The notes under the pieces: generated by a model
Seen by the model: only the letters and a program-made list of their open reading frames with translations
What the model was told of the DNA's origin: nothing
The model's database searches: none
Part shown: positions 739-21,344 of the stretch, in pieces
Layout: each line of letters opens with the position of its first letter
Numbering within the stretch: the stretch's first letter is position 1
Made by a program: the position numbers and the translations under genes
IMG/VR virus record: IMGVR_UViG_3300005529_000102
Location: 1 to 23,021 of that record
From: a virus
Length of the DNA: 23,021 bases
Direction: 5' to 3' (one strand)

Positions 739-1989
739 ATGAGCAAGAAGCGCGATAGCAAAAAGCGAGTCGCTCTTGTGCAGCTCTTCGCAGAGCGGTC
801 GAGCTCTGCGCCACCGGAGCGTATCCACGTCGTCCCAATAGGCGAGTGGGATCACCCGGTCTACGGCCTGATGAAGATAGACGCCGATGACGTCCAGGAG
901 TTCGTAAGGAACTTCAATGACGGCATCCGGCGCGACATCCCCATCACGGCCGGACACGACAATGGCATGAGCGGAGGCGAGCTTCCGGCAGTCGCTTGGT
1001 TCACAAGCATGACTGCTGAATCTGACGGCCTCTGGGGAGACGTCAATTGGAACGACGAAGGCAAGGAGCTTCTCGTTTCCGGCGCCTTCAAGTACTTCTC
1101 GCCCGAGTTCTACGAGGTGTACGAAGACCCCCAGACGCACGAGATACGCAAGAACGTACTCGTCGGAGGCGCTCTTACCAACAAGCCGTACTTCAAGGAA
1201 CTCACGCAGGTTTATTCTTTTAGCGAAGATATTTCTAAGCAAGTAACTCTATATATGGATCTCAAAAAGATTTTGGCGAAGGCTCCGAAGGACCTCTCCG
1301 ATGCGGAGAAGGCGTTCCTTCGCGAGAATGCTGAGAAGCTCAACGACGAGCAGAAGCGCACGTTCTCAGAAGTCATTGCGGCCAGCGAGAACGATGATGA
1401 CAATAAGGACGGCGGCGACGACGAAGGCGGCGGCGGCTCCGATGATGGAGACGACGACGGCGGGAACGGCGGCGACGACAAGGACGAGAAGGGTAACAAG
1501 GACGAGCTTCAGGGCTCGGAAGTGAAGATCTCGGCCGCTGAACTCGCGGCGCTGAAGACTGCTGCCGAACAGGGCGCGGAGGCGCTTCGGAAAGTCCAGG
1601 CGAGCGAGCGCAAGGCATACGTCGACAAGATGATATTCTCGACGGTCAACACGTCGGGCCGCTTCTTCCCGAACCAGAGGGAAGCCCTCGAGAAGTTCGT
1701 TAAGACCCTCTCCGAGAGCCAGCGCGATCAGTTCGGCCAGATCGTCCAGAAAATGCCGAAGCTCGACAAGTCTATCTTCACTGAGGTCGGCAGCGGCGAG
1801 GACACCTCCGCTACGAGGTCCTCGAAGGACATCGCGGAGGAAGTGAAGAAGCTTGCGAATGAGAAGATCACTGCGGCTGAGACCAAGGGCAAGTCGCTCA
1901 AGTACTCCGAGGCAGTGCGCCAGGTCTACGCCGAGAAGCCGGAGCTCAAGCAGGCGTACGACGCTGCGAAGGCTGAAGAGGACAAATAA
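739..1989 (+). CDS. Mu gpI-like prohead protease fused to scaffold
   Basis: A 416-aa protein. Residues about 27-160 match the Mu-like prophage I protein family: RIHVVPIGEWDHP at the start, PITAGHDNG, the YFSPEFYEVYED region and the GGALTNKPYFKEL block. In phage Mu, gpI is the prohead protease and its C-terminal part acts as scaffold. Here a very acidic, Gly-rich linker (residues about 215-255, runs of D, G and E) separates the protease from a charged, coiled-coil-rich scaffold half that ends EEDK. The frame is open from a TTG at 709, but ATG 739 is preferred because a -10-like TATGAT ends 6 nt before it and the extra residues are not family-like. No Shine-Dalgarno. An in-frame ATG at 1255 may give a separate scaffold protein. 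Confidence 0.85.
   Translation: MSKKRDSKKRVALVQLFAERSSSAPPERIHVVPIGEWDHPVYGLMKIDADDVQEFVRNFNDGIRRDIPITAGHDNGMSGGELPAVAWFTSMTAESDGLWGDVNWNDEGKELLVSGAFKYFSPEFYEVYEDPQTHEIRKNVLVGGALTNKPYFKELTQVYSFSEDISKQVTLYMDLKKILAKAPKDLSDAEKAFLRENAEKLNDEQKRTFSEVIAASENDDDNKDGGDDEGGGGSDDGDDDGGNGGDDKDEKGNKDELQGSEVKISAAELAALKTAAEQGAEALRKVQASERKAYVDKMIFSTVNTSGRFFPNQREALEKFVKTLSESQRDQFGQIVQKMPKLDKSIFTEVGSGEDTSATRSSKDIAEEVKKLANEKITAAETKGKSLKYSEAVRQVYAEKPELKQAYDAAKAEEDK
1211..1254 (+). promoter_or_regulatory. AT-rich island before an internal start, possible internal promoter
   Basis: About three quarters of the bases from 1211 to 1260 are A or T, against a clearly GC-rich background. The island contains TTTATT, GATATT and TAACTC and ends in TATATG at 1255. 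This composition inside an otherwise GC-rich coding region suggests a promoter and/or an unstructured ribosome entry site. The exact -10 element is ambiguous. Confidence 0.4.
1255..1989 (+). CDS. Probable nested scaffold protein (in-frame internal start)
   Basis: An in-frame ATG at 1255 lies in the context TATATG, the same start context as most genes here, right after the AT-rich island. It would give a 244-aa protein beginning MDLKKILAKAPKDLSDAEK, which looks like the natural beginning of a phage scaffolding protein. It contains the acidic linker and the coiled-coil C-terminal half but no protease domain. Phage lambda (C/Nu3) and Mu (I/Z) make scaffold in just this way from the 3' half of the protease gene. 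Start context and composition are seen in the sequence; the second product is inferred. Confidence 0.5.
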   Translation: MDLKKILAKAPKDLSDAEKAFLRENAEKLNDEQKRTFSEVIAASENDDDNKDGGDDEGGGGSDDGDDDGGNGGDDKDEKGNKDELQGSEVKISAAELAALKTAAEQGAEALRKVQASERKAYVDKMIFSTVNTSGRFFPNQREALEKFVKTLSESQRDQFGQIVQKMPKLDKSIFTEVGSGEDTSATRSSKDIAEEVKKLANEKITAAETKGKSLKYSEAVRQVYAEKPELKQAYDAAKAEEDK

Positions 1990-2012
1990 TAGCCCGATAA
2001 TTTCTAACATCT

Positions 2013-2390
2013 ATGTCTACTGAAAACATCGGCCACGTAGCCTCTCGCGAAGCTGGAGAGGCGATGACCGACAAGCAGAACTACATCGTGCAGCTCGACG
2101 CCGCCGGCAAGATCGAAGTCGGCGAAGGCGCAACGGATCTCTTGTGCGGTGTTTTGCAGAACACGCCCGACGTCGGACAGATGGCGACCTACGCCTTCTC
2201 CGGCATCGCTAAGGTCAAATTCGGCGGCACCGTGACCCCTGGAGCTTGGGTCACCTCTGACACCAGCGGCAAAGCGATTGCGACCACTACCGATAAGAAC
2301 GTCGTGATAGGCCGCTACATCGGCACGTCGAATGCCGTCGATGGCGACATCGGTCCGGTACAGCTCGGCATCTTTACGCTCTCTGCTTAA
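2013..2390 (+). CDS. Capsid cement / decoration-like protein (DUF2190-like)
   Basis: A 125-aa, beta-rich protein with the plan of small capsid-decorating proteins: an N-terminal EAGEAMTDKQNYIVQLDAAGKIEV, then LLCGVLQNTPDVGQMATYAFSGIAKVKFGG, and a C-terminal strand ending PVQLGIFTLSA. Such proteins sit on the outside of the capsid and stabilise it after expansion. Position directly before the major capsid gene fits. The start context is aacatctATG, shared to the base with the next gene at 2410; there is no Shine-Dalgarno. A GATAAT at 1997-2002 could promote a transcript with a leader of about 4 nt. The family call rests on pattern and position. Confidence 0.7.
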   Translation: MSTENIGHVASREAGEAMTDKQNYIVQLDAAGKIEVGEGATDLLCGVLQNTPDVGQMATYAFSGIAKVKFGGTVTPGAWVTSDTSGKAIATTTDKNVVIGRYIGTSNAVDGDIGPVQLGIFTLSA

Positions 2391-2409
2391 TTCCTAATCA
2401 TCAACATCT

Positions 2410-3333: not shown

Positions 3334-3346
3334 TCGAACGCCATCG

Positions 3347-3366
3347 GCCCGGCCTCAGCGCCGGGC
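3347..3366 (+). terminator. GC hairpin after the major capsid gene
   Basis: GCCCGGC (3347-3353), loop CTCAGC, GCCGGGC (3360-3366): a perfect 7-bp stem 14 nt after the capsid stop codon. No T-run follows, so it is more likely an mRNA-stabilising 3' hairpin or a partial attenuator than a full rho-independent terminator. Confidence 0.4.
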
Positions 3367-3389
3367 TGGTGGCCCTAACACCAAATCAT

Positions 3390-3923
3390 ATGGGAGCATT
3401 TTTTCGAAAAGACGTCCCCATCCTGGCGCCTTTCTTCCAGCTCATCAATCGCACGGGGATCACGCGGCCGAAGATGACCGGCGGCGTCGTCCGAGAGACC
3501 GCAGTGGCGGTCTTCGATCCGTCCGGGAACAGCGGGCATAGGAGCGTCGGTGCACACGGCCTTGGCGTCTTCATTCCGACCAAGGCGATCATTACCGAGG
3601 TACGCATAGACATCCCGACCACGTTCGCGGATGGTGCATCGGATAACGCCACGATCGCGCTGAAGGTTGAGAGCGCGAACGACATCGTGTCGGCAATCGC
3701 GATCAGTGACGCGTCCAATGTCTGGGATGCCGGCATGCACGGTGCCAAGCCTGGCAATTTCGCGCTTGACGGCAACTCACTCACGCAGATCGCAATGGCA
3801 GCTGCGCGTGCAGCGTCGTGGATCAAAACGACCGCAGAGCGCGAGATCACGGCCACCGTTGCCGTTCACGCCCTTACCGCCGGCAAGGCGAACATTTACG
3901 TCGACTATGTAATCAGCGACTAG
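3390..3923 (+). CDS. Predicted virion protein of unknown function
   Basis: A 177-aa protein that I do not recognise. It starts MGAFFRKDVPILAPFF, then has a beta-rich middle (VGAHGLGVFIPTKAIITEVR, IDIPTTFADGASDNATIALKVE) and ends with IYVDYVISD. The pattern of alternating hydrophobic strands suggests a beta-sandwich, as in head fibres or capsid-associated proteins. It lies directly after the major capsid gene. An upstream in-frame GTG at 3369 falls just after the capsid hairpin; ATG 3390 (catATG) is preferred because it has the T at -1 seen in neighbouring genes. No Shine-Dalgarno. Confidence 0.65.
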   Translation: MGAFFRKDVPILAPFFQLINRTGITRPKMTGGVVRETAVAVFDPSGNSGHRSVGAHGLGVFIPTKAIITEVRIDIPTTFADGASDNATIALKVESANDIVSAIAISDASNVWDAGMHGAKPGNFALDGNSLTQIAMAAARAASWIKTTAEREITATVAVHALTAGKANIYVDYVISD

Positions 3924-3925
3924 GT

Positions 3926-4366
3926 ATGACGACCTACTACGTTCGCAAGACTGTGAGCCATAACGGGAAGCGCTACAGTCGCGGTGAGACCGTCGACATC
4001 GAGGGAAGCGCGGAACAGCTGCTCGCTGCCGGTGTCATCCAGGAGGGTCCTGTCGAAGCCACCTCTCCGGAGAAGAACGAGGACAAGCCCGAGAATGAGC
4101 CGACCGTCGGCGGCGACAAGAACGAGTTGGGCGAACCGTCGATAGACGGACGCGATGATGGCGAGCGCACAGAAGCGACCGACGTCACTGTCGAAGTGAC
4201 CGAGGACATGAAGCGCGACGAGCTCGAGGCGATCGCCATCAAAGAAGGCGTGACCGAGGCAGCCATCAGCGACGCCCCGAACAAAGCCGCCCTTGTCGAC
4301 CTCATCAAGGAGAAGCGGGCTGCAACCGACCCCGCGACTACTAACGACCCGTCCGCGGGCCTCTAG
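3926..4366 (+). CDS. Small virion-associated protein with SAP/HeH-like C-terminus
   Basis: A 146-aa protein with three visible parts. Residues 1-38 (MTTYYVRKTVSHNGKRYSRG onward, ending AAGVIQ) resemble the short beta domain of phage head-tail or neck accessory proteins. Residues about 40-95 are an acidic low-complexity linker. Residues about 98-132 (MKRDELEAIAIKEGVTEAAI, then KAALVDLIKEKRA) resemble a SAP/HeH/Rho-N helix-extended loop-helix that often binds nucleic acid. The start is 2 nt after the previous stop in TAGGTATG, so translation reinitiation is likely. Upstream in-frame sequence back to 3818 overlaps the previous gene and is rejected. Confidence 0.6.
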   Translation: MTTYYVRKTVSHNGKRYSRGETVDIEGSAEQLLAAGVIQEGPVEATSPEKNEDKPENEPTVGGDKNELGEPSIDGRDDGERTEATDVTVEVTEDMKRDELEAIAIKEGVTEAAISDAPNKAALVDLIKEKRAATDPATTNDPSAGL

Positions 4367-4368
4367 TT

Positions 4369-4941
4369 ATGACCAAGGCCCTTGAGAGAGTTCTACCTAG
4401 CCTGCTGTTCGCGCTCATCTTCGCGATCCTGCCAACCGCAGCGTTCGCGAACCCGATGTATTACGCGAACGGGACATCGACGGCCGCAGCCACGACCTCC
4501 CCGACGTTTATGTCACCGGGCGCAGGCACGACCACGTCGCCGATCTACGACTCATTCGCGGACACGGTAGCCGGCGGCTTCACATACAGGACCGACTATG
4601 TCGGGCTCCTGGGACGCCTCGCGGGATCTTCCACGAATTCCGTCCTGACGATTTGCCCTGAGTATTCTCAGAACCGGATCGATTGGTATCGCGACTTCGT
4701 GCTCGACCCGACGCAGATAGGCACGACCACGCCGTTCAGCGTCGTGAACCCGAACTGTGTGACCTGGCGCTTTGCGTCGTCCACGGTCGGTGGTGCTGCC
4801 GTGACCGCATCGACCGGCGCCACTTCAACAGCCGCGATGATCTTCTCGACGCCATTCCGCTACACGCGCTTCGTGTACTCAATCGCAGGCGCTGCAGCGA
4901 ACTTCTGGGCTCAGCTCGTGCCCTTGAAGCAGGCTCGCTAG
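4369..4941 (+). CDS. Secreted protein with Sec signal peptide, unknown function
   Basis: A 190-aa protein. Residues 1-27 form a textbook signal peptide: positive N-terminus (MTKALERV), hydrophobic core (LPSLLFALIFAIL) and an Ala-Phe-Ala cleavage site before NPMYY. The mature part is rich in Ser, Thr, Ala and Gly and contains GTSTAAATTSP and GAGTTTSP, in the same style as the 1536-aa protein downstream. Two Cys (ICPEYS and NPNCVTW) may form a disulphide outside the cytoplasm. It begins 2 nt after the previous stop (TAGTTATG). I do not recognise a family. A signal peptide in the middle of a phage structural operon is unusual; it could be a cell-surface moron or an exported fibre component. Confidence 0.65.
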   Translation: MTKALERVLPSLLFALIFAILPTAAFANPMYYANGTSTAAATTSPTFMSPGAGTTTSPIYDSFADTVAGGFTYRTDYVGLLGRLAGSSTNSVLTICPEYSQNRIDWYRDFVLDPTQIGTTTPFSVVNPNCVTWRFASSTVGGAAVTASTGATSTAAMIFSTPFRYTRFVYSIAGAAANFWAQLVPLKQAR

Positions 4942-4953
4942 TTTCACAAGAAA

Positions 4954-4983
4954 CGGCCGGAGTGATACCGCCTCCTCCGGCCG
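4954..4983 (+). terminator. Perfect 9-bp hairpin without T-run
   Basis: CGGCCGGAG (4954-4962), a 12-nt loop, and CTCCGGCCG (4975-4983). It fills the gap between the genes at 4369 and 5004. No T-run follows, so it may act as an attenuator, processing site or mRNA-stabilising element rather than a full terminator. Confidence 0.4.
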
Positions 4984-5003
4984 AGTGCCCCAGGCGGCTA
5001 TAC

Positions 5004-5579
5004 ATGCTCGACCCCGTAACCAACTTCGGAAAGGCGACGGTCACCGGTTTCAATGCCGTTGCGACGTCAGCGACAGTCGATACAGGCCAAGGCGCCAGGT
5101 TTCCGCAGCCGTCAACTGACGGCGCTTTTAATGTGACCGTGTGGAACGCCACCGACTACGCCGATCCATCGGACGATCCAGATAGGGAAATAGTGCGCGT
5201 CACCGCCCGCTCCGGCGACGTCATGACCATCACGCGTGCACAGGAGGGCACATCTGCTTCCGCGCACAACACGGCAGGGAAGACGTACAAGATAGCGCTG
5301 GCCATTACCGAGAAGATGATTGCCGACATAAGAGCTGCTCTGAACGCTATCGCTCCAATCACCTTCTCCTTGGTCGACATCACAGGCACCTTCGACGATA
5401 GCAACCTCATCTTCACGCTCGCATCCGAGCCTGAGAACGGCGTCGCTCTTGTTCTCCTCGCGCGCCAGCCGCAGTTCCCGGACCTCGATTTCGTATACGA
5501 CGGAGTTGTCACCCTCACGTTCGTAACGCCACCGCCGTCTTCCCTATCCGGAGAACCGTTCAAGGCACTGGTATACTGA
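5004..5579 (+). CDS. Tail-fibre/baseplate-associated protein
   Basis: A 191-aa protein starting MLDPVTNFGKATVTGFNAVA. It contains REIVRVTARSGDVMTITRAQ followed by EGTSASAHNTAGKTYKIALAITEKMIADI, a short beta domain I associate with the bases of phage tail fibres (the 'ITRAQEGT' motif followed by a helix). The C-terminal third (TFSLVDITGTFDDSNLIFTL onward) is another beta-rich domain. The frame is open upstream to 4683, but that overlaps the previous gene; ATG 5004 is the first start after the 9-bp hairpin. It is one of only four phage starts with C rather than T at -1. No Shine-Dalgarno. Confidence 0.6.
   Translation: MLDPVTNFGKATVTGFNAVATSATVDTGQGARFPQPSTDGAFNVTVWNATDYADPSDDPDREIVRVTARSGDVMTITRAQEGTSASAHNTAGKTYKIALAITEKMIADIRAALNAIAPITFSLVDITGTFDDSNLIFTLASEPENGVALVLLARQPQFPDLDFVYDGVVTLTFVTPPPSSLSGEPFKALVY
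5572..5577 (+). promoter_or_regulatory. -10-like TATACT before the 1536-aa gene
   Basis: TATACT (5 of 6 matches) ends 8 nt before ATG 5586, predicting a transcript with a leader of about 2 nt. It lies in the last codons of the previous gene. No convincing -35 box. Confidence 0.4.
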
Positions 5580-5585
5580 CATGGT

Positions 5586-8500
5586 ATGAAGCGCAGCCTA
5601 CTTCTCGCGTTTCTAAGCCTTCTACTTCCCCTCACCGCATCGGCCGCCCCGTTCGCTCCCGGCGTCGGAGGCACCGGCACATCGACCGCCCCGAACTACG
5701 GCAAACTGCTCGTCGGCAATGCCGGCGGAACCTATACGCTCACGGCCACCTCGTCGCTTGGCCTACCGGCCTTCTCCGATCTAGCCGGCTACCTGCTCGC
5801 GTCCCAGTTCGGCGCGCAGTTCTACTCGTATTTCCACGGCACAACGACCGACTATCTCACTGAAGGCACCACGAACAAGTACTACACCGACGCCCGCGTT
5901 CAGACGTACCTCGCGACCGTCGACAAGAGCTTCTATTTCAGCACCACGAGCGCGAATGCCTGGAAGTCGCTCAATAACTTCTTCTCGACCACCAGTGCGG
6001 ACCATTGGAAGAGCGCTCGAGACTTCTTCAGCACAACGTCAGCTTCGTACTTCCTAAGCCAGAACCAAGGCGCGGCGTTCTCGACCACGTCGGCCGATGC
6101 GTGGAAGACCAATCGCGACTTTTTCAGCACGACGTCTGCCGAGTACTTCCTATCTCAAAACCAGGGTCCGGCGTTCTCTACGAGCTCGTTCAACTACGCG
6201 CTCTCGATCGTCGATAAAGGCTACTTCTTCAGCACGACCAGCGCGGACTACTGGAAGTCGCAGCGCACGTTCGCCGGCGCATCGACCACGCTGCTCTCCG
6301 ATCGGAATGCATGGTCCGCGCTACAGACATTCAACTACGCATCCTCGACCGCGCTTTCGGGCACCTGGCTTTGCATCGGATCGGATTGCCGCAGCTCCTG
6401 GCCGTCCGCGGGAACCAATGCTTCTTCGACGCTTCTCGGCGATACCAACACGTTCTCGACTGCGGCGACCACGACGTTCTCAAATGGCGTGGCAGTCGGC
6501 AACCTATCCCAGACCGGTTCCGCAACGACGACATTCGCCCGCGGCATAACCCTCGCCGCCGGCTGTTTCGCCATCGCGAACAACTGCATATCTCTCGCGA
6601 ATCTGCCGGGCCAGGTCACGCTTACGAGCCAGGTCACAGGCGCCCTTCCGCTCGCAAATGGCGGCCTTGGTTCCGACGTCTCCGGTTTCGGCACCGGCAT
6701 CTTCGGGCTCATCTCCGGCACGCTCACCGACATCGACACGCTCGGAGAGATAGAGACAGTCGTCGGTTCGCAGAACATCCTGCTCGAGACCGAAATAGAC
6801 GGATGCTCTGAACTCGCTGCCCTCTTCGATGCGGAGACTGGCGGGTGCAATGGTACTTCGGGTCCGGTCTTCCCTGACAGCCCGGTATTCAGCGGCAACG
6901 TCGGCTTCTCCTCGTCGACGCCAGGGGCAACGCTTGCAGTGAATGGGCCGGCGATCGTCGCGGGCACGACGACTGCCACTGTTTTTCTAACCTCTTCCTC
7001 CACGGCTACATCGACCTTCGCGGGCAGCCATTCAGTTCTCAATTTCGCACAGACGGGCACAGCGACATCGACCTTCAATCGCGGCCTGACAATCGCTGCA
7101 GGATGCTTTGCGCTCAACAACGCATGTCTGCTCAGCATCCTTTCCGCTTCATCCCCGCTCACCTTCTCTGCCGGCGCGCTGGGCATCCAGAACGCAGCGG
7201 CAGACGGTTCGACAAAGGGCGCGGCATCGTTCTCCGCTAATGATTTCGACGCCTCGAGCGGAAACATAAGCCTGGACTATACGAACGGGCAGAAAGCATC
7301 GGGATCGCAGCCAGGTTTCCTGTCCTCGGCCGACTACAGCACCTTCAATGCCAAGGCGTCGTTCTCGTACCTATTCCCGAACAATGCGACCGGCACGATC
7401 CTTTCGCTCACAGGCGCCCTTGTCGGTTCTTCGACTGTCGGCAGCCTGAATGCCACGAACACGATCGCTGTCCCTATCTCGGGTATCCTCAAGGGCAACG
7501 GAACCGGGAACGCAGTAGGTGCTGCAGCGAACGGAGCTGATTACACGCTCGTCTCAGCGCAGACATGCTCAGCTGGACAGCACATCTCGGCACTGACCGC
7601 TTCCGGCGGCTCCACATGCTCTTCTGACAGCGCATCTCTCGGCTACACAGCTTGGGGCGGCTCTATCGGTACGACATACGGCACAAGCACTGTCTCATCG
7701 ACTACCCCGATATGGCTCAAAGGCCCGATATACGCCTCTTCGACCCCCGAGAATCCCAGTGTCGTCGATAACTTCACGGCCACGCGCAGCACGACGACGG
7801 CCGCGACCACAAGCGCATTCGCAATTTCGAGCGTCACGTCCGCATTGCACTTGGCGAACAGCACGGGCGGCGTCACTGCGTATTCCGGTACTTCCTGCAC
7901 GAACCAGTTTGTCCGCTCCGTAAACGGCGCGGGTGTCGCGACGTGCAACACGGTATCTCTCACAGCCGACGTAACCGGCACCCTTGGAGTTTCCAACGGC
8001 GGCACCGGCTCCACGACCCTCTCAGGCATCCTCAAGGGCAATGGAACGAGCCAGGTCGCAACCGCAGTGGCCGGCACTGACTACGTCACACCTTCTCAGC
8101 TATTCGCGTATCTGTTCCCAAGCAATGCCACCAGCACGGTCATCGCATTCAGCGCCGGAACTTTGCAGGGTACTTCGACCATTGGCGATCTAACTGCAAC
8201 GAGTTCGTTCAAGCTACCAGTCTCCGGCATCTTGAAGGGCAATGGCGCTTCCACTGCCGTTACCGCTGCCGTAGACGGTACGGACTTCTCGCTCATCACC
8301 GCGCTTACCTGCAGCGCCGGTTCTCATCTTTCGCAAGTCGCAGCAAATGGCGATTTCACGTGCTCCGCCGACACGGCACCCTTTTCCTATCCGTTCCCCA
8401 GCAATGCCACGACGACCGGACTGGGCATCTATGCCTCCTCGACCATAGGCGCAGGCGGTCAAGCGACCGGCCTTACGGTCAGCGGAGGAGCGACCACCAC

Positions 8501-10196: not shown

Positions 10197-10197
10197 T

Positions 10198-11439: not shown

Positions 11440-11440
11440 T

Positions 11441-12594: not shown

Positions 12595-12600
12595 CTATGT

Positions 12601-13053
12601 ATGGGCTTCCAACTGGAATGGAGCATCGAGGGGGAGAAGCAGGTCTCCCGAGTTCTCATCGGTATGGGGTCTGCTTTGAGGGACTACACCCAGCCCTTCA
12701 CGCAGTCCGCGCAATATCTGAAGGAGACCTTCTCCAAGGACGTGTTCGAAACCCAAGGCGCGGCGATTGGGGAGAAGTGGAAACGCCTTTCGCCCTACAC
12801 CGTAGCGCAGAAGGCCCGAAGAGGTTTGCCGCTCGAGCCTCTAGTGGGTTCGGGCAAGATGCGCGATTCATTCGTCACGATCGTCACATCCGAACAGGCA
12901 GTGGTCCGCAACACAGCTCCGTACTTCCCCTTCCATCAGTCGAACAAACCGCGCTCCCGGCTCCCGCGGCGCGTCATGATGAAGATCGGAGAGAACCAGA
13001 AGGAGCAGGTCGTCCGATATTTTCAGGAGTACATCCGCGCTAGCATGCTATGA
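12601..13053 (+). CDS. Phage virion morphogenesis / tail completion protein (Mu gpG-like)
   Basis: A 150-aa protein with the order of motifs seen in the tail-completion family (P2 gpS / Mu gpG): GEKWKRLSPYTVAQKARRGL, then EPLVGSGKMRDSF, then YFPFHQSNKPRSRLPRR, then a C-terminal helix. In family members this protein helps finish and attach the tail. The start is ATG 12601; a second ATG at 12597 is in another frame that gives a composition-driven shadow. The overlap with the next gene is 4 nt (start 13050 within CTATGA). No Shine-Dalgarno. Confidence 0.75.
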   Translation: MGFQLEWSIEGEKQVSRVLIGMGSALRDYTQPFTQSAQYLKETFSKDVFETQGAAIGEKWKRLSPYTVAQKARRGLPLEPLVGSGKMRDSFVTIVTSEQAVVRNTAPYFPFHQSNKPRSRLPRRVMMKIGENQKEQVVRYFQEYIRASML

Positions 13054-13556
13054 GCAAACCCTACTCCGACCCGATCCTGCAGAAGTACATCGACCTCATC
13101 AAGGCGAACTGCGGTGACTTCAAAGCTTTCTATCAGGGTGAACCAGTCCGCATTCCAAACAGCAGTCTTCCGGCCCTTCTCATCTCGAAGCGTCAGACCC
13201 AGGTCGGGCCCCTCAGCAATGCCGAGGACGGACACCAGATGGGGATAACCATCACCGTCATAGTCGACGTCCGGAAGGACCTCAGCACGGAGGAAAGCAT
13301 CCCGGCTGTCACCAACGGCGTCGCTACGCTGTACGACATCATGGAAGGGCGCAATGAAGACTACACCCTAAAAGATGGCTCTATCCTTGACATTCTCAGG
13401 ACCAATCTTCTCGTAGACGACGTCCATCAGCTGCGCACTGACCTCGACAGCGTTACGCGCGTGGACTACGGCACCACGCTGCGCGATCGGCCGGCCGGAG
13501 AATGGTACATCGAGGCGTCTGTGGATTTCGTCTGTACATTCGTACAGGTGCGGTAG
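13050..13556 (+). CDS. Tail terminator-like protein
   Basis: A 168-aa alpha/beta protein starting MSKPYSDPILQKYIDLIKAN. It contains PALLISKRQTQVGPLSNAED and the strand GITITVIVDVRKDL, and it ends in a beta strand (WYIEASVDFVCTFVQVR). The pattern of an N-terminal helix, central strands and a closing strand fits phage tail terminator proteins, which cap the tail tube and bind the head. Its place between the tail-completion gene and the tail tube gene is where a terminator is expected. The start overlaps the upstream stop as ATGA. The assignment relies on order and secondary-structure pattern. Confidence 0.6.
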   Translation: MSKPYSDPILQKYIDLIKANCGDFKAFYQGEPVRIPNSSLPALLISKRQTQVGPLSNAEDGHQMGITITVIVDVRKDLSTEESIPAVTNGVATLYDIMEGRNEDYTLKDGSILDILRTNLLVDDVHQLRTDLDSVTRVDYGTTLRDRPAGEWYIEASVDFVCTFVQVR

Positions 13557-13559
13557 AAT
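13554..13559 (+). promoter_or_regulatory. -10-like TAGAAT for a leaderless start at 13566
   Basis: TAGAAT (5 of 6 matches) overlaps the previous gene's TAG stop and is followed by exactly 6 nt and ATG 13566. Confidence 0.45.
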
Positions 13560-13565
13560 GACCCT

Positions 13566-13730
13566 ATGGCGAAAGGCATCACCGTCATCACCACCCATCA
13601 CAGCGCAATCCACTTCCCGAAGTTCAATTTCACGATCTATCCGGGACAGGCGAAAGAGCTTCCGAAAGAAAAAGAAGCGCAGGAAGCTATTCTCGCATGC
13701 CCGCACATTATCAAGGAGCGCGAACACTAA
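13566..13730 (+). CDS. Small 54-aa phage protein
   Basis: A 54-aa protein: MAKGITVITTHHSAIHFPKF, a short beta segment (NFTIYPGQAKELPKEKEAQE) and a helix ending IIKEREH. It fits tightly between the tail terminator-like and tail tube genes, with 9 nt before and 6 nt after. An ATG at 13558 in another frame gives an Arg-rich protein that overlaps the tail tube gene and is unlikely. Support comes from position, the -10-like TAGAAT exactly 6 nt before the ATG, and T at -1. Function unknown; small genes are often found before phage tail tube genes. Confidence 0.65.
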   Translation: MAKGITVITTHHSAIHFPKFNFTIYPGQAKELPKEKEAQEAILACPHIIKEREH

Positions 13731-13736
13731 TTTTAT

Positions 13737-14711
13737 ATGGCGCGAACATCAGGTACGCAGACCAACATCGGCATCGGAATCGAAAGCACGCCCGGCACCG
13801 CAGTCGCGGCAACCCACTTTCCGAAATGGGCAGAGCTCTCCCTCCAGGGCGTTTCTGAGAAGGCTCCGCTGACCTCTCAGCGCGGCGTCAGGAACATGAG
13901 CTCGGATAGCATGATCCGGCGCAAGTTTTCCCAGGGCAGCATTGCCGTCGTACCGAACGGCGACATCGCTCCGATCTTCTTCTACCTCGCGCTCGGTTCG
14001 AAGGCGACGACAGGCCCGACCGACGGAACCTATTCGCACACCTTTTCCGTTCAGAACGCGAATGCGTCGATGAAGACCGCGACTATCCTCAAGGAAGACG
14101 GCAGCATCGTAACCGAGCGCTTCGCGAACTGCGTCGTCAACGAACTCACTCTCGAGGCATCGGACAGCTGGGCACGGCTGATGGCCTCGATTCTCGGAGG
14201 TTATCCGGACACCGGCAGCGTCACCGAGTCCTTCTCGCAGGAGAATGAGTATGCATATCACCAGATGGCCGTTAAATTTGGTACCTCGCTCTCCAACGCA
14301 GCCAGCCAGAACGCGACGCCGCTCAAGTCTTTCCAGCTCAACATCAAGAACAACGTCCTGCAGGATGAAGCATTCCTATCTGGTAGCAATCAGCCGGTGG
14401 CTTGGGTAGCCGGCCGCTTCGAAGCCTCAGGCTCTTACGCTCTGCACTTCTCCGACACCACGGAGCTCGATAAGTACAAGGCGAACACCAAGAACGCCGC
14501 GATCATCACCTTCACGGGCGCCGTAACCGGTGGCGGCTCCACCCCGGAGAGCATCACTATCAAGCTCGGTAGGCTCGTCCTCAACAAAGAGCCGCTCGTC
14601 TACCAACTCGACGGCATCACTGTCCTGCAGCAGGAATTCACGGTCGAATTCGAAGCCACCGACAAGGAGGTGCAGGTTGTTGTCGTCAACGACACTTCAA
14701 GCTACGCATGA
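13737..14711 (+). CDS. Major tail tube protein
   Basis: A 324-aa protein. The N-terminus (MARTSGTQTNIGIGIESTPG, then TAVAATHFPKWAELSLQ) matches the start of a common siphovirus tail tube family, where the 'GIESTPGT' element precedes the first strand. A large beta-rich body follows, with NELTLEASDSWARLMASILG in the middle and a final strand FTVEFEATDKEVQVVVVND. It lies directly before the frameshifted tail chaperone gene, its canonical position. The start is TATATG after an AT-rich stretch, without Shine-Dalgarno. The stop overlaps the next start as ATGA. Confidence 0.8.
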   Translation: MARTSGTQTNIGIGIESTPGTAVAATHFPKWAELSLQGVSEKAPLTSQRGVRNMSSDSMIRRKFSQGSIAVVPNGDIAPIFFYLALGSKATTGPTDGTYSHTFSVQNANASMKTATILKEDGSIVTERFANCVVNELTLEASDSWARLMASILGGYPDTGSVTESFSQENEYAYHQMAVKFGTSLSNAASQNATPLKSFQLNIKNNVLQDEAFLSGSNQPVAWVAGRFEASGSYALHFSDTTELDKYKANTKNAAIITFTGAVTGGGSTPESITIKLGRLVLNKEPLVYQLDGITVLQQEFTVEFEATDKEVQVVVVNDTSSYA

Positions 14712-15025: not shown

Positions 15026-15201
15026 GATACGCCAGTGATGGCCTGCTCAGGGACGAACTCATCGTGTTGGAAGTCTGCCGGCGCAACGGCTGGACCTATC
15101 ACGATTTCATGGCGAATCCCCACTGGGTGAATGAGCTTGCGATCGAGCAGCTCGTTATCGACACCAAGAAGGCCAAGGCCGCACAGAGCGCGCTACAATA
15201 G
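14708..15201 (+). CDS. Tail assembly chaperone, -1 frameshift fusion (G-T type)
   Basis: Slipping back one base on A-AAA-AAA (15001-15007) joins the first 100 codons to a 64-codon frame that ends at TAG 15199-15201. The added part begins IRDLLLRYASDGLLRDELIV and ends in a helix (HWVNELAIEQLVIDTKKAKA). The WTYHDFMANPHW motif in its middle is typical of the T part of such chaperones. The -1 frame has a stop (TAA 14998-15000) immediately before the run, so the shift must take place on the run itself. The fusion of about 164 aa would bind tail tube subunits through its T part while the G part coats the tape measure. Confidence 0.8.
14999..15007 (+). other. A9 slippery sequence for programmed -1 frameshifting
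   Basis: Nine consecutive A, read as AAA AAA AAA in the starting frame, including the classic heptamer A-AAA-AAA. It is the longest single-base run I noticed in a GC-rich window and lies exactly at the junction of the two chaperone frames. Confidence 0.8.
15194..15199 (+). promoter_or_regulatory. -10-like TACAAT before the tape measure gene
   Basis: TACAAT (5 of 6 matches) ends 8 nt before ATG 15208, overlapping the stop of the chaperone fusion frame; predicted leader about 2 nt. No clear -35 box. Confidence 0.4.
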
Positions 15202-15207
15202 GCATAT

Positions 15208-16863
15208 ATGGCCTTCTTCGGCGGAGGTAGCGACCAGACCCTGCAGATCACGCTCCGAGCGAAGGATGAGGCCACACAGTCCATCAACAAGGTCCGCCTT
15301 TCTATTGGGGACCTCGCCAAAGGCTTCGTCGTAGGCAACCTGGCTACTGACGTCTTCCGCAGAGGCTTGTCCCTGGTATCGGGCGTTATCAGCGCATCAC
15401 AGCGCGAGTATCAACAGCAGGCCCAGGCCCTGGCACAGATGAATGCTGTGCTGAAGTCCACCGGCTCAGCGGCAGGTCTGACCGCCAAGCAACTCGTCGA
15501 TCTATCAACATCGCTTTCGAAAGCCACCCTCTTTACGGACGATCAGGTCCTCTCGGCTCAGAACCTGTTGCTCACCTTCACCAACATAAAGAGCAGCATC
15601 TTCGAGGACACCACCAGGGCCGTGCTCGACCTGAGCCAAGCGATGGGTCAAGACCTCAAGTCTAGTGCCGTCCAGCTCGGCAAGGCGCTCAACGATCCCC
15701 TGACCGGTATATCGGCACTCCAGCGCGTCGGAGTGTCCTTCAGCAGCTCACAAGAGGAGCTCATTGCCAAGCTCGTAAAGAGCGGCAACACCCTCGAGGC
15801 GCAGCGTCTCATTCTGAAGGAGCTCAACAAGGAGTTCGGCGGATCGGCCGAGAGCGCGTATGCGGCTGCAAGCTCATACGAGAAAATGGAGAAGAACATC
15901 CAGGAGCTCGAGCAAGGCATCGGCTCGGGTCTTGTACCGGCCGTAAACAACCTCTTCCATTCGTTCGAGCAGGTGACGGCAGGCATGGGTGACTCAGTCG
16001 ATGTCGGCCGCGCGACGTTCGTCACTTTCTCCACCATCACGCAAACAGCTGCAGCTGCAGCCGTCATGATCCATTCCGCTGCGGCCGCTTTCGTTCTCTT
16101 CGGCTCAAAGGTCACGCAATACTCGGCCTCAGTCGGAGGAGCCGGACTTGCCATGAAGATGATGGGCAAGGAGGTGAAGGAAAACACCAAAGGCTTCGAC
16201 GATTTCAATAACGCCGTGCTCGATGGCGTCTCAACTTCCAGGCAGTTCTACGACCAGCTCGTCGAACAGAACGGCAAAGTCCTTAAGACTTGGGGCGACA
16301 TGACCACTTCTGCCCTGACGCTCGGGAAGACGGCACCGGACGCCTATCAAAAGACCGCCAAGGAGGCCGCAGAAGCGGCCAAGAAGGGCAAGGAGGCCGC
16401 TCAGTCCATTATGACCGCGAAGAGCGCCGTGGAGGACTTCCAGCGGGCTCTAAGGGGTGACCGAGAGGACCTCGCGAAGTCCTATGCCGACGCCGAGCAG
16501 CGCCTCTTCGGTTTACGCAAGCAGGCCAGTACGGAAGACGACCCGGAGCGCATGAAGGAGCTTCAGCTCGAGATCACAAAGCAGCAATCTGCTCTCGATC
16601 GCCTTCGGCCGAACTTTCAAGGTGACCAGAGCACCGTTCTCGACACCGCGCGTCGCTATGCCGAGGCAACAGATCTCGAGCGCAGCTTCCTTGACATCGC
16701 CAAGCGGACAGTCGAGCAGACCCGCAGCTTCGCACAGACCGTCCAGCTGAATTTCAACTTTAATGACGCCGTGGCCGGTGACCAGGGCATCCGGGACATC
16801 ATCATGAAGACCATGCAAGAGCTCGACCGCCAATCGACCCTCAAGGGCCTCGGTGGTCTCTGA
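15208..16863 (+). CDS. Tail tape measure protein
   Basis: A 551-aa, mainly helical protein directly after the frameshifted chaperone gene. The N-terminal region (MAFFGGGSDQTLQITLRAKD onward) and the segment SSAVQLGKALNDPLTGISAL with QRVGVSFSSSQEELI match the tape measure family in which ALNDPLTG..LQRVGV is a hallmark. Two hydrophobic stretches lie in the middle (residues about 270-300, TQTAAAAAVMIHSAAAAFVL), followed by Lys/Ala-rich coiled coil. Family knowledge suggests about 0.15 nm of tail per residue, so the tail would be roughly 80 nm, short for a siphovirus. The start is TATATG. No lysozyme or peptidase motif seen. Confidence 0.85.
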   Translation: MAFFGGGSDQTLQITLRAKDEATQSINKVRLSIGDLAKGFVVGNLATDVFRRGLSLVSGVISASQREYQQQAQALAQMNAVLKSTGSAAGLTAKQLVDLSTSLSKATLFTDDQVLSAQNLLLTFTNIKSSIFEDTTRAVLDLSQAMGQDLKSSAVQLGKALNDPLTGISALQRVGVSFSSSQEELIAKLVKSGNTLEAQRLILKELNKEFGGSAESAYAAASSYEKMEKNIQELEQGIGSGLVPAVNNLFHSFEQVTAGMGDSVDVGRATFVTFSTITQTAAAAAVMIHSAAAAFVLFGSKVTQYSASVGGAGLAMKMMGKEVKENTKGFDDFNNAVLDGVSTSRQFYDQLVEQNGKVLKTWGDMTTSALTLGKTAPDAYQKTAKEAAEAAKKGKEAAQSIMTAKSAVEDFQRALRGDREDLAKSYADAEQRLFGLRKQASTEDDPERMKELQLEITKQQSALDRLRPNFQGDQSTVLDTARRYAEATDLERSFLDIAKRTVEQTRSFAQTVQLNFNFNDAVAGDQGIRDIIMKTMQELDRQSTLKGLGGL

Positions 16864-16869
16864 TACACT
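16864..16869 (+). promoter_or_regulatory. -10-like TACACT for a leaderless start at 16876
   Basis: TACACT (4 of 6 matches) follows the tape measure stop and is followed by exactly 6 nt and ATG 16876. Confidence 0.35.
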
Positions 16870-16875
16870 TAACCT

Positions 16876-18195
16876 ATGGCGAGCATCAAATTCGATGACA
16901 CTGAAATTCTGGATGCCGACCACATCCCTCAGTACATCAAGCATGAGTCCGTAGCCGAACGAGTGCTCGTATCTATGTCGCTCGGGCGGGAAGACGGCGA
17001 GGCATTCATATCCGAGCGCTACGGCAAGAAACTCATTACGCTCCGAGGCATGCTCCGCGGAAGCAGCCAGGCCGACCTCGACGACGCAATAGATGAATTT
17101 AAGGAGCTTTTTTCTCGTCCCGAGAAAGCACTCGATGTCAGCTTCGGCAGCGGCACACGTCGCTATATCGCCACCTGTACCAAGCACGAGTTCGACCGCG
17201 ACCACTATCACACAAACGGCGTGCCCTGGACTGCTGAGTTCGTCGTTTCAGGAGGCGTTGGTTACGACACCGAAGTCACAACTCCCATCAGCGCTGACAG
17301 CATCACCACCGCAGACGACGGCGACGGCAATTACGTCCACGAAGGCTCGTTCGACATTGAGGGCAGCAAAGCAGCGGCTCCGATCATTACGCTTGAGTTC
17401 ACGACAGCCGACGCAGATATGCTCGGAATTGAGTTCATGAATACCGACACAGGCGAACGCATCGTCATTACGCGCAATGGTGACTGGAACGGCGCCACTC
17501 TGATTATCGACTGTCTGAACAAGCGCGTCCTGGACAACGTACTCAACGGCGGCGACCCCGTTGAAGGCTCCTTCTATGGCATGTTCCCGAATTTCCAGAT
17601 CGGAACCAACAATTTCCGTATCACGACCGGCGGCATCGTCAGCCAGCGTTCTTCGGAGGACAGCGTGCCCGCGAACGGTGCTCCCGGCTACTACGTTCGC
17701 TTCCTCAACGACAGCAAGTTCTGTGCGATGAGCTTTACTGTTCCATACACTGACGACACCTACGGCGCGGTCAAACTTGGCCTTACTCATGAAGGGTCGC
17801 CGCCGGCAAGCACGCCATTCGCCTATATCTGGCCTGACGACGAGGGGGAACCCGATTCAGGCGCGGCCCTAACGTCCGATTCGTTCGACGGCTCTGCTGT
17901 GCCCACCTACCCAACGTACGCCTACGTAACCGCGTCTCTTCCTACCGCTACCCTCCAAGCCAACACGCGCTACTGGCTTGGCATGACCATATCGCTCGAT
18001 GATCCGCCCAACTACTTCGACTGGAATGGCAGCTCCGACATCTCGTATCCTCGCGGCGGCATAAAGACCTCCATCGACAGCGGCGGTACATGGTCTGACG
18101 AAATCGGCAGCATGGCCTTCCGCATCCTCTTCGGCGGCGCACCGAAGGAGACCGATTTCAACCTCACCGTTGAATACACGAAGACCTATCTCTGA
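16876..18195 (+). CDS. Distal tail (Dit-like) protein with added beta-sandwich module
   Basis: A 439-aa protein. Residues 1-130 have the plan of the Dit N-terminal barrel: MASIKFDDTEILDAD, then GKKLITLRGMLRGSSQADLD with the helix DDAIDEFKELFSRPEKALDV, then strands RRYIATCTKHEFDRDHYHT and WTAEFVVSGGVGYD. In siphoviruses Dit joins the tail tube to the baseplate. Residues about 130-255 are a second beta domain. Residues about 256-421 look like a carbohydrate-binding-type beta-sandwich (FTVPYTDDTYGAVKLGLTHE, NTRYWLGMTISLDD, FRILFGG) that is similar in plan to a module in the next gene. Position after the tape measure fits. No Shine-Dalgarno. Confidence 0.75.
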   Translation: MASIKFDDTEILDADHIPQYIKHESVAERVLVSMSLGREDGEAFISERYGKKLITLRGMLRGSSQADLDDAIDEFKELFSRPEKALDVSFGSGTRRYIATCTKHEFDRDHYHTNGVPWTAEFVVSGGVGYDTEVTTPISADSITTADDGDGNYVHEGSFDIEGSKAAAPIITLEFTTADADMLGIEFMNTDTGERIVITRNGDWNGATLIIDCLNKRVLDNVLNGGDPVEGSFYGMFPNFQIGTNNFRITTGGIVSQRSSEDSVPANGAPGYYVRFLNDSKFCAMSFTVPYTDDTYGAVKLGLTHEGSPPASTPFAYIWPDDEGEPDSGAALTSDSFDGSAVPTYPTYAYVTASLPTATLQANTRYWLGMTISLDDPPNYFDWNGSSDISYPRGGIKTSIDSGGTWSDEIGSMAFRILFGGAPKETDFNLTVEYTKTYL

Positions 18196-18198
18196 GGT

Positions 18199-19980
18199 AT
18201 GACGTCCAAGAAACACGTCATCGCGCGCGTATCCGATTCGTCAGACCGCTTCATCAAGGCGTGGTCCAATATCCAATTCGATGGCTACGCGAAGGTCCTC
18301 AACGGCGGCTGTGGCGAGTGCGTAATACGCTATGCCGTACCCTTCGATTACGACGGCGCAGACCTTCGTGAAGGCAATCAAATCGACCTGCTCCTGGGCG
18401 ATGCTGATACCCTAGCAGACCCTACCTCCGACTTTGGAGCACGCCTTCTCTATCGCGGCTACATCTCACTCATTGAGCGCGAGCTGTCGCAGAACGACGA
18501 GCGCGTCACCGTCCACATTCTTGGGCACTACACACTGCTATCCCTGGACATATTGAGAGAGAGCGACGTCACCACGCTTTACTCTGCTGATGGTACGGGC
18601 GTCGAAGCCAATCTGTCCAACTCCTCCGGCGATCTCGCACCGGGCGACATTGCCCAGATGGCCCGCAGCGTCATCCTCTACTTCAACGACCAAGCGGGAG
18701 TGAATGCGAATAAGCTGTACTTCCTAGCCGAGGACGCACCGGACCTTGGTGCAACCGCGACGTACAAGTTCGTCCAGAAGACTTATCGTGAAGCTCTCGA
18801 CATACTGAAGAGCCTCGCTCCTGCGAACGTCTACTGGTCCATAGACGAGACCGGACGCTTCCGCTTCAAGTCAATTCCCTCGGCCCCCACGCACGAGTTT
18901 GTATTCGGCAAGCATGTCTCGAAGCTGCGCGTAGAGCGCTCCCTAGAAAAGCTCCGGAACGTCGTCCTCGTATGGAACGGGGATGCTATCTATGCCAACT
19001 ACGAGGACTCCGCCTCCATTGCTCTATATGGGCGCAGAGCCGAGCGCATAAACGACTTCGGCATCGCCGACACCGACGCCGCGGATGCCGTCGGAGCGAA
19101 GTTCCTCGCTGAGAATAAAGACCCCTCCATGAAGGTCATCGCCACCATCGTGGACAATGCCAGTTCGGACGGTGCAAACGAAATCACTGTAGATCGGCCA
19201 GTATACACGGTCGATGATAGCGATAGCGCCTGCGACGCCGGCAACACTCTGACGACGAGCGGCGACCAGGCAGCAGCACAGACATTCGAGTCCAATGGAG
19301 GCACTCTCGCGCAAGCTCGCTTTCGATTGGCTCGCACCGGCTCTCCAACAGGCAACATCTACGCCAAGCTATACGCGATTACAGGCTCGTTCGGTTCGAC
19401 CTCGACGCCTACCGGCTCCCCTCTGGCCGTCTCCGAGCCGGTCGACGTCTCAACGCTTCCGACGACGGCCGGCGACCCAGCTGACTTCGCCCAGACCCTC
19501 TTCCGCTTCACTGGGGTCAATCAGTACGCAATGTCAGCCGCCACGCGGTACGCCATAGTCCTCGAATACACGGGCGGCGACATATCTAATTACGTCTGGT
19601 ACGGCGTAGACGGCAGCCTCACCCATCCCGGCAATCTTTCAACCTTCACAGCCGCAACGTGGACCCCGAACGGCTCTGCCGACCTAACCTTTGCGGTCTA
19701 CATCGTCACTGTCGAATCGCTCACCATTTCCCAGGCAACCGGCACCGACATCGAGGACATACAGCCTGGTCACACTTGCCGCTTCGTTGGTTTCAGCTCG
19801 ACCCTATCGGATATATTCAAGGACAACATGCTCATCACTGAGGTGCGTTATAGCCTTGGCTCGGTCGAACTGACCATCGAACTCAACAAAAGCGGTATCC
19901 TCGACATCCAGGCACAGCAGGGCCGTCGCATCAGTGACATCGGCAACGGTGGTCTAGGCATCCCCGATAACTACTCCTGA
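18199..19980 (+). CDS. Baseplate hub / tail-associated (Tal-like) protein
   Basis: A 593-aa protein. The N-terminal half reads as a phage baseplate hub: RFIKAWSNIQFDGYAKVLNG, RLLYRGYISLIERELSQNDE, VHILGHYTLLSLDIL and a region with YWSIDETGRFRFKSIP, consistent with a gp27/Tal-type hub. Residues about 335-506 are an inserted beta-sandwich (AAQTFESNGGTLAQARFRLA, TRYAIVLEYTGGDISNYVWY, DLTFAVYIV) similar in plan to the one in the preceding Dit-like protein. The hub fold then resumes (TGTDIEDIQPGHTCRFVGFS to IELNKSGILDI). It starts 3 nt after the previous stop (TGAGGTATG); the GAGG there is too close to act as a good Shine-Dalgarno. Confidence 0.7.
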   Translation: MTSKKHVIARVSDSSDRFIKAWSNIQFDGYAKVLNGGCGECVIRYAVPFDYDGADLREGNQIDLLLGDADTLADPTSDFGARLLYRGYISLIERELSQNDERVTVHILGHYTLLSLDILRESDVTTLYSADGTGVEANLSNSSGDLAPGDIAQMARSVILYFNDQAGVNANKLYFLAEDAPDLGATATYKFVQKTYREALDILKSLAPANVYWSIDETGRFRFKSIPSAPTHEFVFGKHVSKLRVERSLEKLRNVVLVWNGDAIYANYEDSASIALYGRRAERINDFGIADTDAADAVGAKFLAENKDPSMKVIATIVDNASSDGANEITVDRPVYTVDDSDSACDAGNTLTTSGDQAAAQTFESNGGTLAQARFRLARTGSPTGNIYAKLYAITGSFGSTSTPTGSPLAVSEPVDVSTLPTTAGDPADFAQTLFRFTGVNQYAMSAATRYAIVLEYTGGDISNYVWYGVDGSLTHPGNLSTFTAATWTPNGSADLTFAVYIVTVESLTISQATGTDIEDIQPGHTCRFVGFSSTLSDIFKDNMLITEVRYSLGSVELTIELNKSGILDIQAQQGRRISDIGNGGLGIPDNYS

Positions 19981-20019
19981 CGTATCCACAGTACCCGCTG
20001 CTACCTCTCCTTCCGGGTA

Positions 20020-20025
20020 TATAAT
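20020..20025 (+). promoter_or_regulatory. Perfect -10 TATAAT for a leaderless lysis-module transcript
   Basis: An exact TATAAT lies in the 51-nt gap after the hub gene, followed by exactly 6 nt and then ATG 20032. This is the best leaderless promoter candidate in the window because it lies outside any gene. No good -35 box (CTGCTA at 19998-20003 is weak). Confidence 0.55.
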
Positions 20026-20031
20026 TCGGTC

Positions 20032-20358
20032 ATGCCCACGGACTGGCTTCAGGTCCTCCCCAATCTCTCGATCGGCGTCATTTCCGTAATCGCCCTGGCC
20101 TATATATCCCTTCGGCACTCCCAGACGCAGCAATCTTTACAAGATCAATTCATCACGTCATTGGACGACCGCGCTGACAAGCACGAAGCCGCTATGAACG
20201 AGCGCGAGCAGGCTCTTCGCGCTGTCGAAGCCGACGTGCGCCGCAATCTGACCGACCAGCTCGCACAGAACACCATCGCTCTGAAGGGTAATGCTGACGC
20301 CTTTGCCAGCAACACCAAACTCATGGAGCGCGTCGTCGAGCACCTCGACTCCAAATGA
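20032..20358 (+). CDS. Small membrane-anchored coiled-coil protein (lysis-associated)
   Basis: A 108-aa protein. Residues about 9-27 form one hydrophobic segment (PNLSIGVISVIALAYISL); the rest is a charged, heptad-rich helix (from SLDDRADKHEAAMNEREQAL to MERVVEHLDSK) with no Cys. A single N-terminal membrane segment with a long coiled coil is seen in phage lysis-cassette proteins such as spanin-like or holin-accessory proteins. It lies directly upstream of the endolysin and shares a TGATATG junction with it. Function is inferred from topology and position only. Confidence 0.55.
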   Translation: MPTDWLQVLPNLSIGVISVIALAYISLRHSQTQQSLQDQFITSLDDRADKHEAAMNEREQALRAVEADVRRNLTDQLAQNTIALKGNADAFASNTKLMERVVEHLDSK

Positions 20359-20359
20359 T

Positions 20360-21148
20360 ATGACCTGCGTACAGGGCCAGGGCTTCGGACAGAACCTCAA
20401 CCCCTCCTACAAGCAAACGGGAATTGCGGGCCATCCGGGGATCGACGAGAGCTGCGGCTTCGGCACGCCGGGTCATGCCATCTACGACGGACCTGCCTAC
20501 AAGGTCGTCACGCCTGCCAATGCAGGACCCGAGGGCTTCACAGGCGTATTTCAGCTCGTCGACGACGGCCTGGAATGCTTCGAATGGCTCACGGGCCATT
20601 GCGATCCGCTCGTCCAGCCGGGCACCCCAGTCCATAAGGGGGATCTCTTCTTCACCGAGGCCAACCACGGCAAGGTCTACTCGGGCAACATCGAAATAAC
20701 GCTAGCGATGCAAAAAGCAGGCAACAAGGCCGGCGCGCATCGCCACTACCAGAAGCGCCCCGTCATGCCGGTGCCCTCAACTGACTGGCGCTATGAATAT
20801 CTAGGTGGCCAGACATCCAGCCCCTATCGCGATCCCCAGGGCAACTACTACCGCATCATCGAGCCGTATAACGGCTTCAACGGATGCGTTGACCCTCTGC
20901 GCCCAACCTTCTACCGCGATCTTACGGTCGGCCGCTCTGGTTACGATGTCTTCGTTCTGCAGCGGCTACTGCGCAGGAAGGGCTATTTTGGCGCAGAACC
21001 TACAGCCTTCTTCGGCGCATTCACGGCCGTGGCAGTCGCGAAGTATCAATCAGCAAACGGAATCACGCCGACATCCTATTTTGGCCCACTCACGCGCACT
21101 TTAGCGCTCCGGGAGCTTAGTCCGCTGCCCGTACTGAGCCGGGAATAA
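20360..21148 (+). CDS. M23-family peptidase endolysin with peptidoglycan-binding domain
   Basis: A 262-aa protein. An M23 (LytM/lysostaphin-type) zinc peptidase core is visible from ordered motifs: HxxxD in GHPGIDESC (H25, D29), GTPGHAIYDGPAYKVV, a GHCD equivalent to the family's GH(L) motif, PGTPVHKGDLFF, and HxH in AGAHRHYQ. The C-terminal 65 residues (LTVGRSGYDVFVLQRLLRRK to YFGPLTRTLALREL) are a PG_binding_1-type domain. Such enzymes cut peptide cross-bridges in cell-wall peptidoglycan at lysis. There is no signal peptide, so export probably depends on a holin. ATG 20360 is chosen because it is 1 nt after the previous stop (TGATATG); the open frame upstream overlaps the preceding gene. 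Confidence 0.8.
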   Translation: MTCVQGQGFGQNLNPSYKQTGIAGHPGIDESCGFGTPGHAIYDGPAYKVVTPANAGPEGFTGVFQLVDDGLECFEWLTGHCDPLVQPGTPVHKGDLFFTEANHGKVYSGNIEITLAMQKAGNKAGAHRHYQKRPVMPVPSTDWRYEYLGGQTSSPYRDPQGNYYRIIEPYNGFNGCVDPLRPTFYRDLTVGRSGYDVFVLQRLLRRKGYFGAEPTAFFGAFTAVAVAKYQSANGITPTSYFGPLTRTLALRELSPLPVLSRE

Positions 21149-21152
21149 CAAT
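21147..21152 (+). promoter_or_regulatory. Weak -10-like AACAAT at the leaderless position
   Basis: AACAAT (4 of 6 matches) is followed by exactly 6 nt and ATG 21159. It is listed for its spacing, which repeats that of stronger sites; on its own it is weak. Confidence 0.25.
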
Positions 21153-21158
21153 GCATCT

Positions 21159-21344
21159 ATGGATCAAGGCAAGGCCCTCGTTTCCTCAAGGACGTTCCAG
21201 GTCGCGCTCGTGCAGGCCATCATCGCTGTTGTTGTGATCTTCTCGACGGCCTATCCGGGCGTCGGCTGGTTGCTCGCAGCGAAGTCGGTCCTCGACATCG
21301 TGCTACGCCTCATAACGACCGACCCGATTGCATCGCTTTCCTAA
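21159..21344 (+). CDS. Holin-like small membrane protein
   Basis: A 61-aa protein with two likely membrane segments (VALVQAIIAVVVIFSTAYPG and GWLLAAKSVLDIVLRLI) and a polar N-terminus (MDQGKALVSSRTF). Size, topology and position just after the endolysin suggest a holin, which would let the leaderless endolysin reach the wall. The start is ATCTATG with T at -1, as in most phage genes here. It is the last gene with that start style before the structured region. No family signature recognised. Confidence 0.55.
   Translation: MDQGKALVSSRTFQVALVQAIIAVVVIFSTAYPGVGWLLAAKSVLDIVLRLITTDPIASLS

Follow-up and report, generated by a model that had tools for sequence, protein, structure and literature searches.

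Conserved TATG starts without Shine-Dalgarno sequences in the structural genes of a siphophage clade

How translation starts are found on mRNAs that lack a Shine-Dalgarno (SD) sequence is a long-standing question, for which Alphaproteobacteria had so far given no motif. It is raised by the viral record IMGVR_UViG_3300005529_000102, whose positions 1 to 23,021 (the whole 23,021-nucleotide stretch analysed, hereafter the window) harbor a siphophage structural block encoding protease, capsid, adaptor, tail tube, tape measure, Dit and endolysin. An earlier note on this DNA had claimed that a T immediately before the ATG (position -1) takes the place of the SD at 22 starts of the block, and the recount is exact: T 18 times, C four times (starts 739, 5004, 14708 and 20032) and a purine never, all 22 coordinates being ATGs within open frames. 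As judged from the sequences, this pattern probably reflects SD-independent initiation at unstructured, AT-rich UAUG starts, which would serve the structural genes and most genes of the right arm.

The excess of T is not a composition artefact, as T is the rarest base of the block and T at -1 does not follow the guanine plus cytosine content (GC) of 75 loci (rho 0.02). T precedes only 7 of 74 internal in-frame ATGs, and 46 of 238 when every + strand ATG of the block is counted, so that the binomial probability of at least 18 in 22 is 1.9e-15 or 4.6e-10, respectively; background ATGs as rich in T as the starts, which would have undone the observation, are thus not what is found. Misassigned starts do not produce it either, since taking the leftmost ATG of each called gene, with the -1 base ignored, still gives T in 16 of 22. 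The SD is missing as claimed: the mean anti-SD pairing energy is -1.77 kcal/mol at the window starts versus -2.19 for shuffles, that is, pairing upstream does not exceed chance, as for SD-independent genes. By contrast, the flanking starts 283, 21617 and 22004 have a purine at -1 and anti-SD energies of -9.5, -12.1 and -6.1 kcal/mol; a GGAGG (273-277, + strand, as are all window features given below) precedes the GTG start 283, which opens an Asp_protease_2-like reading frame (match below cut-off), and an AGGAGGG (21605-21611) precedes ATG 21617. The division into phage and flank drawn in that note has to be corrected, as the sequence around the block is not clearly non-phage. By eye, bases 1-282 look like the C-terminal part of a MuF-like head protein, and the portal/MuF-like protein of the relative G001 ends in matching sequence; a Pfam search of the 93-residue piece encoded there gave no match.

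The same context marks related phages, which were gathered via the capsid and tail tube proteins and several of which were extended to 33-51 kb; throughout, starts are predictions of a simple codon-usage gene caller, and the loci are related to one another. The expectation that the -1 base and the SD, once tabulated in such relatives, would reveal a strong T excess with weak SDs was borne out in the near clade. In 17 records, the base before the leftmost ATG is T in 292 cases, C in 89, A in 50 and G in 31, versus T 281, C 671, G 516 and A 435 before the other in-frame ATGs of the same records, and the pattern is present across 36% to 62% GC. The orthologue starts that could be aligned to window genes (n=137) carry T in 113 cases, C in 18, and G and A in three each. 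In these comparisons the base of the window recurs at -1 in 80%, and at positions -2, -3 and -16 to -25 in only 23-34%. Among 80 capsid relatives, T at -1 occurs at 60% of starts and an SD at 8% where the identity is 41% or higher, and the corresponding values are 22% (background 24%) and 62% where it is 35% or lower; the two signals appear to be mutually exclusive, their frequencies across the 75 loci being negatively correlated (rho -0.68). As the capsid tree requires only three state changes, this correlation is mostly one clade contrast and not 75 independent tests, and the idea of many independent evolutionary switches was set aside in favor of one main event. Two distant capsid relatives, L086 (38%) and L101 (34%), also have SD-less starts with T at -1 next to SD-using tree neighbours and are possibly separate switches. 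L072, a clade member with seven genes, shows neither SDs nor a T excess, an exception to the replacement of one signal by the other. With the same caller, T at -1 amounts to 5% in the control phage B3, 33% in lambda (background 21%), 48% in Thermus phage P23-45 (18%) and 49-72% in phages of Bacteroides and Flavobacterium (33-39%), where crAss001 and 11b (L040, L046) reach 72% and 57%, the former against a background of 39%. SD-poor phages elsewhere share a milder T excess, and the present clade is the strong case.

A single genome can contain both kinds of start. SDs precede 43% of the left-arm starts of the high-GC relatives and T at -1 precedes 21%; for their structural block the values are 2% and 80%, and for the right arm, which carries RecT-like genes, 13% and 62%. 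T precedes 20% of the genes with an SD versus 66% of the others (p=1.3e-5). The left-arm genes encode a P4-type integrase, a TrwB-like ATPase, a Replic_Relax-like protein and a DUF932 protein; searching plasmids and Rhodospirillales with the Replic_Relax protein returned nothing useful. The left arm of G001 also encodes a tRNA-Met(CAU) (L019:1493-1570, +), whose anticodon loop reads CTCATAA and whose acceptor end begins with a weak pair; it could be initiator-like, an elongator or Ile2, and ARAGORN detected none in the other long relatives scanned. As the left arm uses SDs, the hosts presumably read them, and the SD-free class would not have been forced by an SD-blind ribosome.

Whether T at -1 is a promoter base or a translation signal can be judged from the -10-like boxes upstream. 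A TANNNT box begins at -12 before 9% of starts, versus 0.4% in the background; secondary peaks lie at -14 and -15, and boxes are conserved before the orthologues of 739, 13566, 15208 and 16876. Where the box occupies -12 to -7, the transcript is predicted to begin at the A of AUG and hence to be leaderless. Such predicted promoters are the TATGAT box (727-732) exactly 6 nt before ATG 739, which is kept in the orthologues of G001, G008, G010, G011, G012, G014 and G016, down to 38% protein identity, and the TATAAT box (20020-20025) exactly 6 nt before ATG 20032. The same spacing is seen for TAGAAT (13554-13559) at start 13566, retained in most orthologues, and for TACACT (16864-16869) at start 16876, which reads TACAAT or TATACT in orthologues; most TATG starts have no box so placed. 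At -14 to -9 lie TATACT (5572-5577) for start 5586, TATAAT (11427-11432) for start 11441, and a conserved TACAAT (15194-15199) before the tape measure gene. In relatives, the portal gene is also preceded by a similar conserved -10 box.

The first idea, that T at -1 is solely the initiator of leaderless promoters, was dropped as the main cause because T is strongest in box-less operon genes. Of the 86 genes whose start follows a stop codon by 0-12 nt, 79 have T and 84 a pyrimidine at -1, and T is found at 18 of 36 starts with a box at exactly -12, versus 144 of 173 tight starts without one (p=9e-5); the former have a pyrimidine in 35 of 36, mostly C where it is not T. Two of the four C exceptions of the window, 739 (head maturation protease, CATG at 738-741) and 20032 (CATG at 20031-20034), belong to this predicted leaderless class. 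Start 14708 (CATG at 14707-14710) lies within an ATGA overlap, orthologues using a nearby TATG, and start 5004 (CATG at 5003-5006) is itself doubtful, T preceding the start in some orthologues. A base that is strongest in box-less operon genes is not a transcription-start base, and its weakening at the box-at-12 genes also favors a signal acting in the mRNA. The simplest reading would be that U at -1 matters only where it is present in the transcript. The start regions are, moreover, weakly folded (a dip to -4.3 kcal/mol versus about -8 outside), as expected for SD-independent initiation, and this dip is far smaller or absent in the left arm, the hosts and other prophages.

In the model proposed here, U at -1 would take effect as part of the mRNA when translation is initiated. 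Most plausibly it would extend, or stack on, the contact between AUG and the initiator formylmethionyl-tRNA via A37, a base that restacks upon binding to the P site (PMC4611024). Pairing of U at -1 with A37 would fit the observed order of bases, U >> C with purines rare. In a smaller set of genes, the -10 box 6 nt upstream would direct transcription from the A of AUG, yielding leaderless mRNAs in which the -1 base is not transcribed and could hence relax to C.

The host bears directly on this model, as the earlier note had suggested a phage tuned to a distinct initiation mode of its host, presumed to be one of the Patescibacteria. A patescibacterial host for the family is disfavoured by the readable host flanks of relatives, which are alphaproteobacterial. 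In the G016 contig (L024+L017+L025), an integrated prophage is bounded by a perfect 53-bp direct repeat (att; about 1985-2037 and 50743-50795) that ends a tRNA-Ala(GGC). One flank encodes a TRAP-TAXI protein and an aldolase, and the other contains the terminal part of a TIGR02300 gene; a single-sequence search with this 46-residue fragment gave nothing useful, and the TIGR02300 profile identified it. TIGR02300 occurs in 77 of the 96 Alphaproteobacteria searched and, among 14 control genomes, only in Caulobacter, and it adjoins the same tRNA-Ala in 13 of 15 loci examined. At the end of G166, whose capsid is 67% identical to that of the window, lie a tRNA-Thr, a DUF6894 gene and a stretch that matches genomes of Alphaproteobacteria, so that integration into an alphaproteobacterial tRNA gene is found in G016 and probably in G166; no attachment site is present in the window. 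The G166 prophage record (L052) also carries a gene for Ku, of non-homologous end joining, at 24699-25632. A further relative lies within a Rhodospirillales metagenome-assembled genome; its contig was suspected of being mis-binned (GC 57% versus 68%), an objection that was dropped because the other flanks make a true alphaproteobacterial host consistent. The clade members with readable host flanks are thus prophages of Alphaproteobacteria, and by kinship the host of the window would be alphaproteobacterial as well. Genes of two such genomes have T at -1 in 1 of 59 and 8 of 110 cases (2-7%), and alphaproteobacterial prophages of 30-34% capsid identity in 5 of 65. As host genes lack it, the signature was not copied from the host, and the start context looks phage-specific, yet usable by ribosomes of the alphaproteobacterial type. 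What stands of the earlier interpretation is therefore that T at -1 is a real and conserved signal, alternating with the SD and seemingly read in the mRNA; the distinct initiation mode of the host is not supported.

Several observations weigh against the proposed translational role. The gene starts are predictions, and the contrast between box and box-less starts shrinks when starts are chosen blind to the box (T in 13 of 20 versus 144 of 173). These phages show no depletion of internal in-frame TATGs (odds ratio 1.02), so that U at -1 alone cannot select starts; it would assist the start and not define it. The window carries no host flank, and the absence of T at -1 from alphaproteobacterial genes, SD-less ones included, leaves unexplained why only the phage should be rewarded for it. 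In another account, the phage switches the initiation mode, its left arm and integration genes using SDs and its structural and replication genes UAUG, by means of a phage-altered ribosome, factor or initiator tRNA. This is unlikely, and if true it would separate phage from host translation.

It could also be argued that T at -1 is the transcription initiator (pyrimidine at -1, purine at +1) of a leaderless promoter before each gene. The enrichment of TANNNT at -12 with its side peaks, the conserved boxes and the near-universal pyrimidine at box starts all speak for such promoters, but T is equally strong at the box-less starts that make up the majority and loses strength at starts with an ideally spaced box, which makes this quite improbable as a general cause. 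Cleavage between U and AUG by a phage or host endoribonuclease, turning a polycistron into leaderless single-gene mRNAs, would unite promoter-made and cut-made leaderless classes and account for the relaxed -1 base of the former; as UAUG is common inside genes, it demands extra specificity, no nuclease candidate was identified, and it is very unlikely. That the context is a functionless relic of an ancestor infecting an SD-less host would agree with its restriction to essentially one clade and with the milder excess in SD-poor Bacteroidetes phages such as crAss001. Decay would, however, be expected in GC-rich alphaproteobacterial hosts, and base -1 is conserved amid randomised neighbours, so that a relic is highly improbable. 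Hardly any credence is left for a phage tuned to a host that itself uses SD-less starts with U at -1: some patescibacterial lineages are reported to be SD-scarce and to lack CCUCC (PMC10783764) and the low-GC clade members carry no host assignment, but G016, and probably G166, has alphaproteobacterial flanks, and T at -1 is rare in the genes of such hosts.

The T-preceded starts of the window run through the whole block. They open the gene of a phrog_673 head protein (scaffold or decoration; 2012-2015), where most orthologues keep the T, that of the major capsid protein (phrog_1005; 2409-2412), an unnamed gene (3389-3392) and two operon-internal genes in which a TAG is followed by a 2-nt gap (3925-3928 and 4368-4371). 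The start of a 1536-residue repeat protein (5585-5588) is followed by two starts with a 1-nt gap, TGA T ATG (10197-10200 and 11440-11443). A search among viral contigs with the repeat protein gave nothing useful, and the frames beginning at 4369, 5586 and 10198 have, by eye, signal-peptide-like N-termini, which is odd for virion proteins. Next come a Mu gp36-like head-tail adaptor (11694-11697), a tail completion protein (12600-12603), a start overlapping the preceding stop (13049-13052), start 13566 (13565-13568) and the tail tube protein (Phage_tube_2; 13736-13739), with which a search among phage records returned nothing useful. The tape measure protein (15207-15210), the distal tail protein (16875-16878), another tail protein (18198-18201), an endolysin with a peptidoglycan-binding domain (20359-20362) and a 61-residue protein (21158-21161) complete the series.

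In this phage clade of Alphaproteobacteria, a single base, the U preceding AUG, is strongly selected. The contrast is built into each genome, with an SD left arm, a UAUG structural block and predicted leaderless genes without the U. Knowledge of the signal could make the gene starts of such phages easier to predict and provide portable SD-free start sites. Among phages, the Pseudomonas B3/Mu-like head gene set has related capsid (about 31%), protease and gp36 proteins, but in B3 62% of genes carry SDs and only 2 of 42 have T at -1. The boxes at -12 to -7 of 739, 13566, 16876 and 20032 resemble the -10-type signal upstream of leaderless bacterial genes, although such genes are a minority here, most TATG starts being operon-internal and box-less; for leaderless genes in bacteria, see Zheng 2011 (PMC3160421). 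In Caulobacter, a member of the same class as the hosts of the relatives, 75.4% of starts lack an SD and 9.6% are leaderless, and both kinds of mRNA are translated as efficiently as those with an SD (PMC4117421). The likeness lies in SD-less unstructured starts and in leaderless mRNAs; the difference is that no abundant motif accounting for non-SD initiation was reported there (PMC4117421), and host-type genomes lack T at -1. In Bacteroidetes, SD-independent initiation is determined by adenines at -3, -6, -12 and -13 (PMC6847099), T at -1 being absent from the determinants reported for Flavobacterium. As in the present clade, the SD is lacking, the bases just 5' of AUG and low structure tune initiation, and the phages show some T excess at -1. 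The Kozak-like A at -3 and -6 is present in low-GC members of the clade and not in high-GC ones (A at -3 mostly 0-19%, 44% in one genome), which rely on -1 instead, and, unlike in Bacteroidetes, the left-arm genes of the clade retain strong SDs, so that SD pairing seems usable in its hosts.

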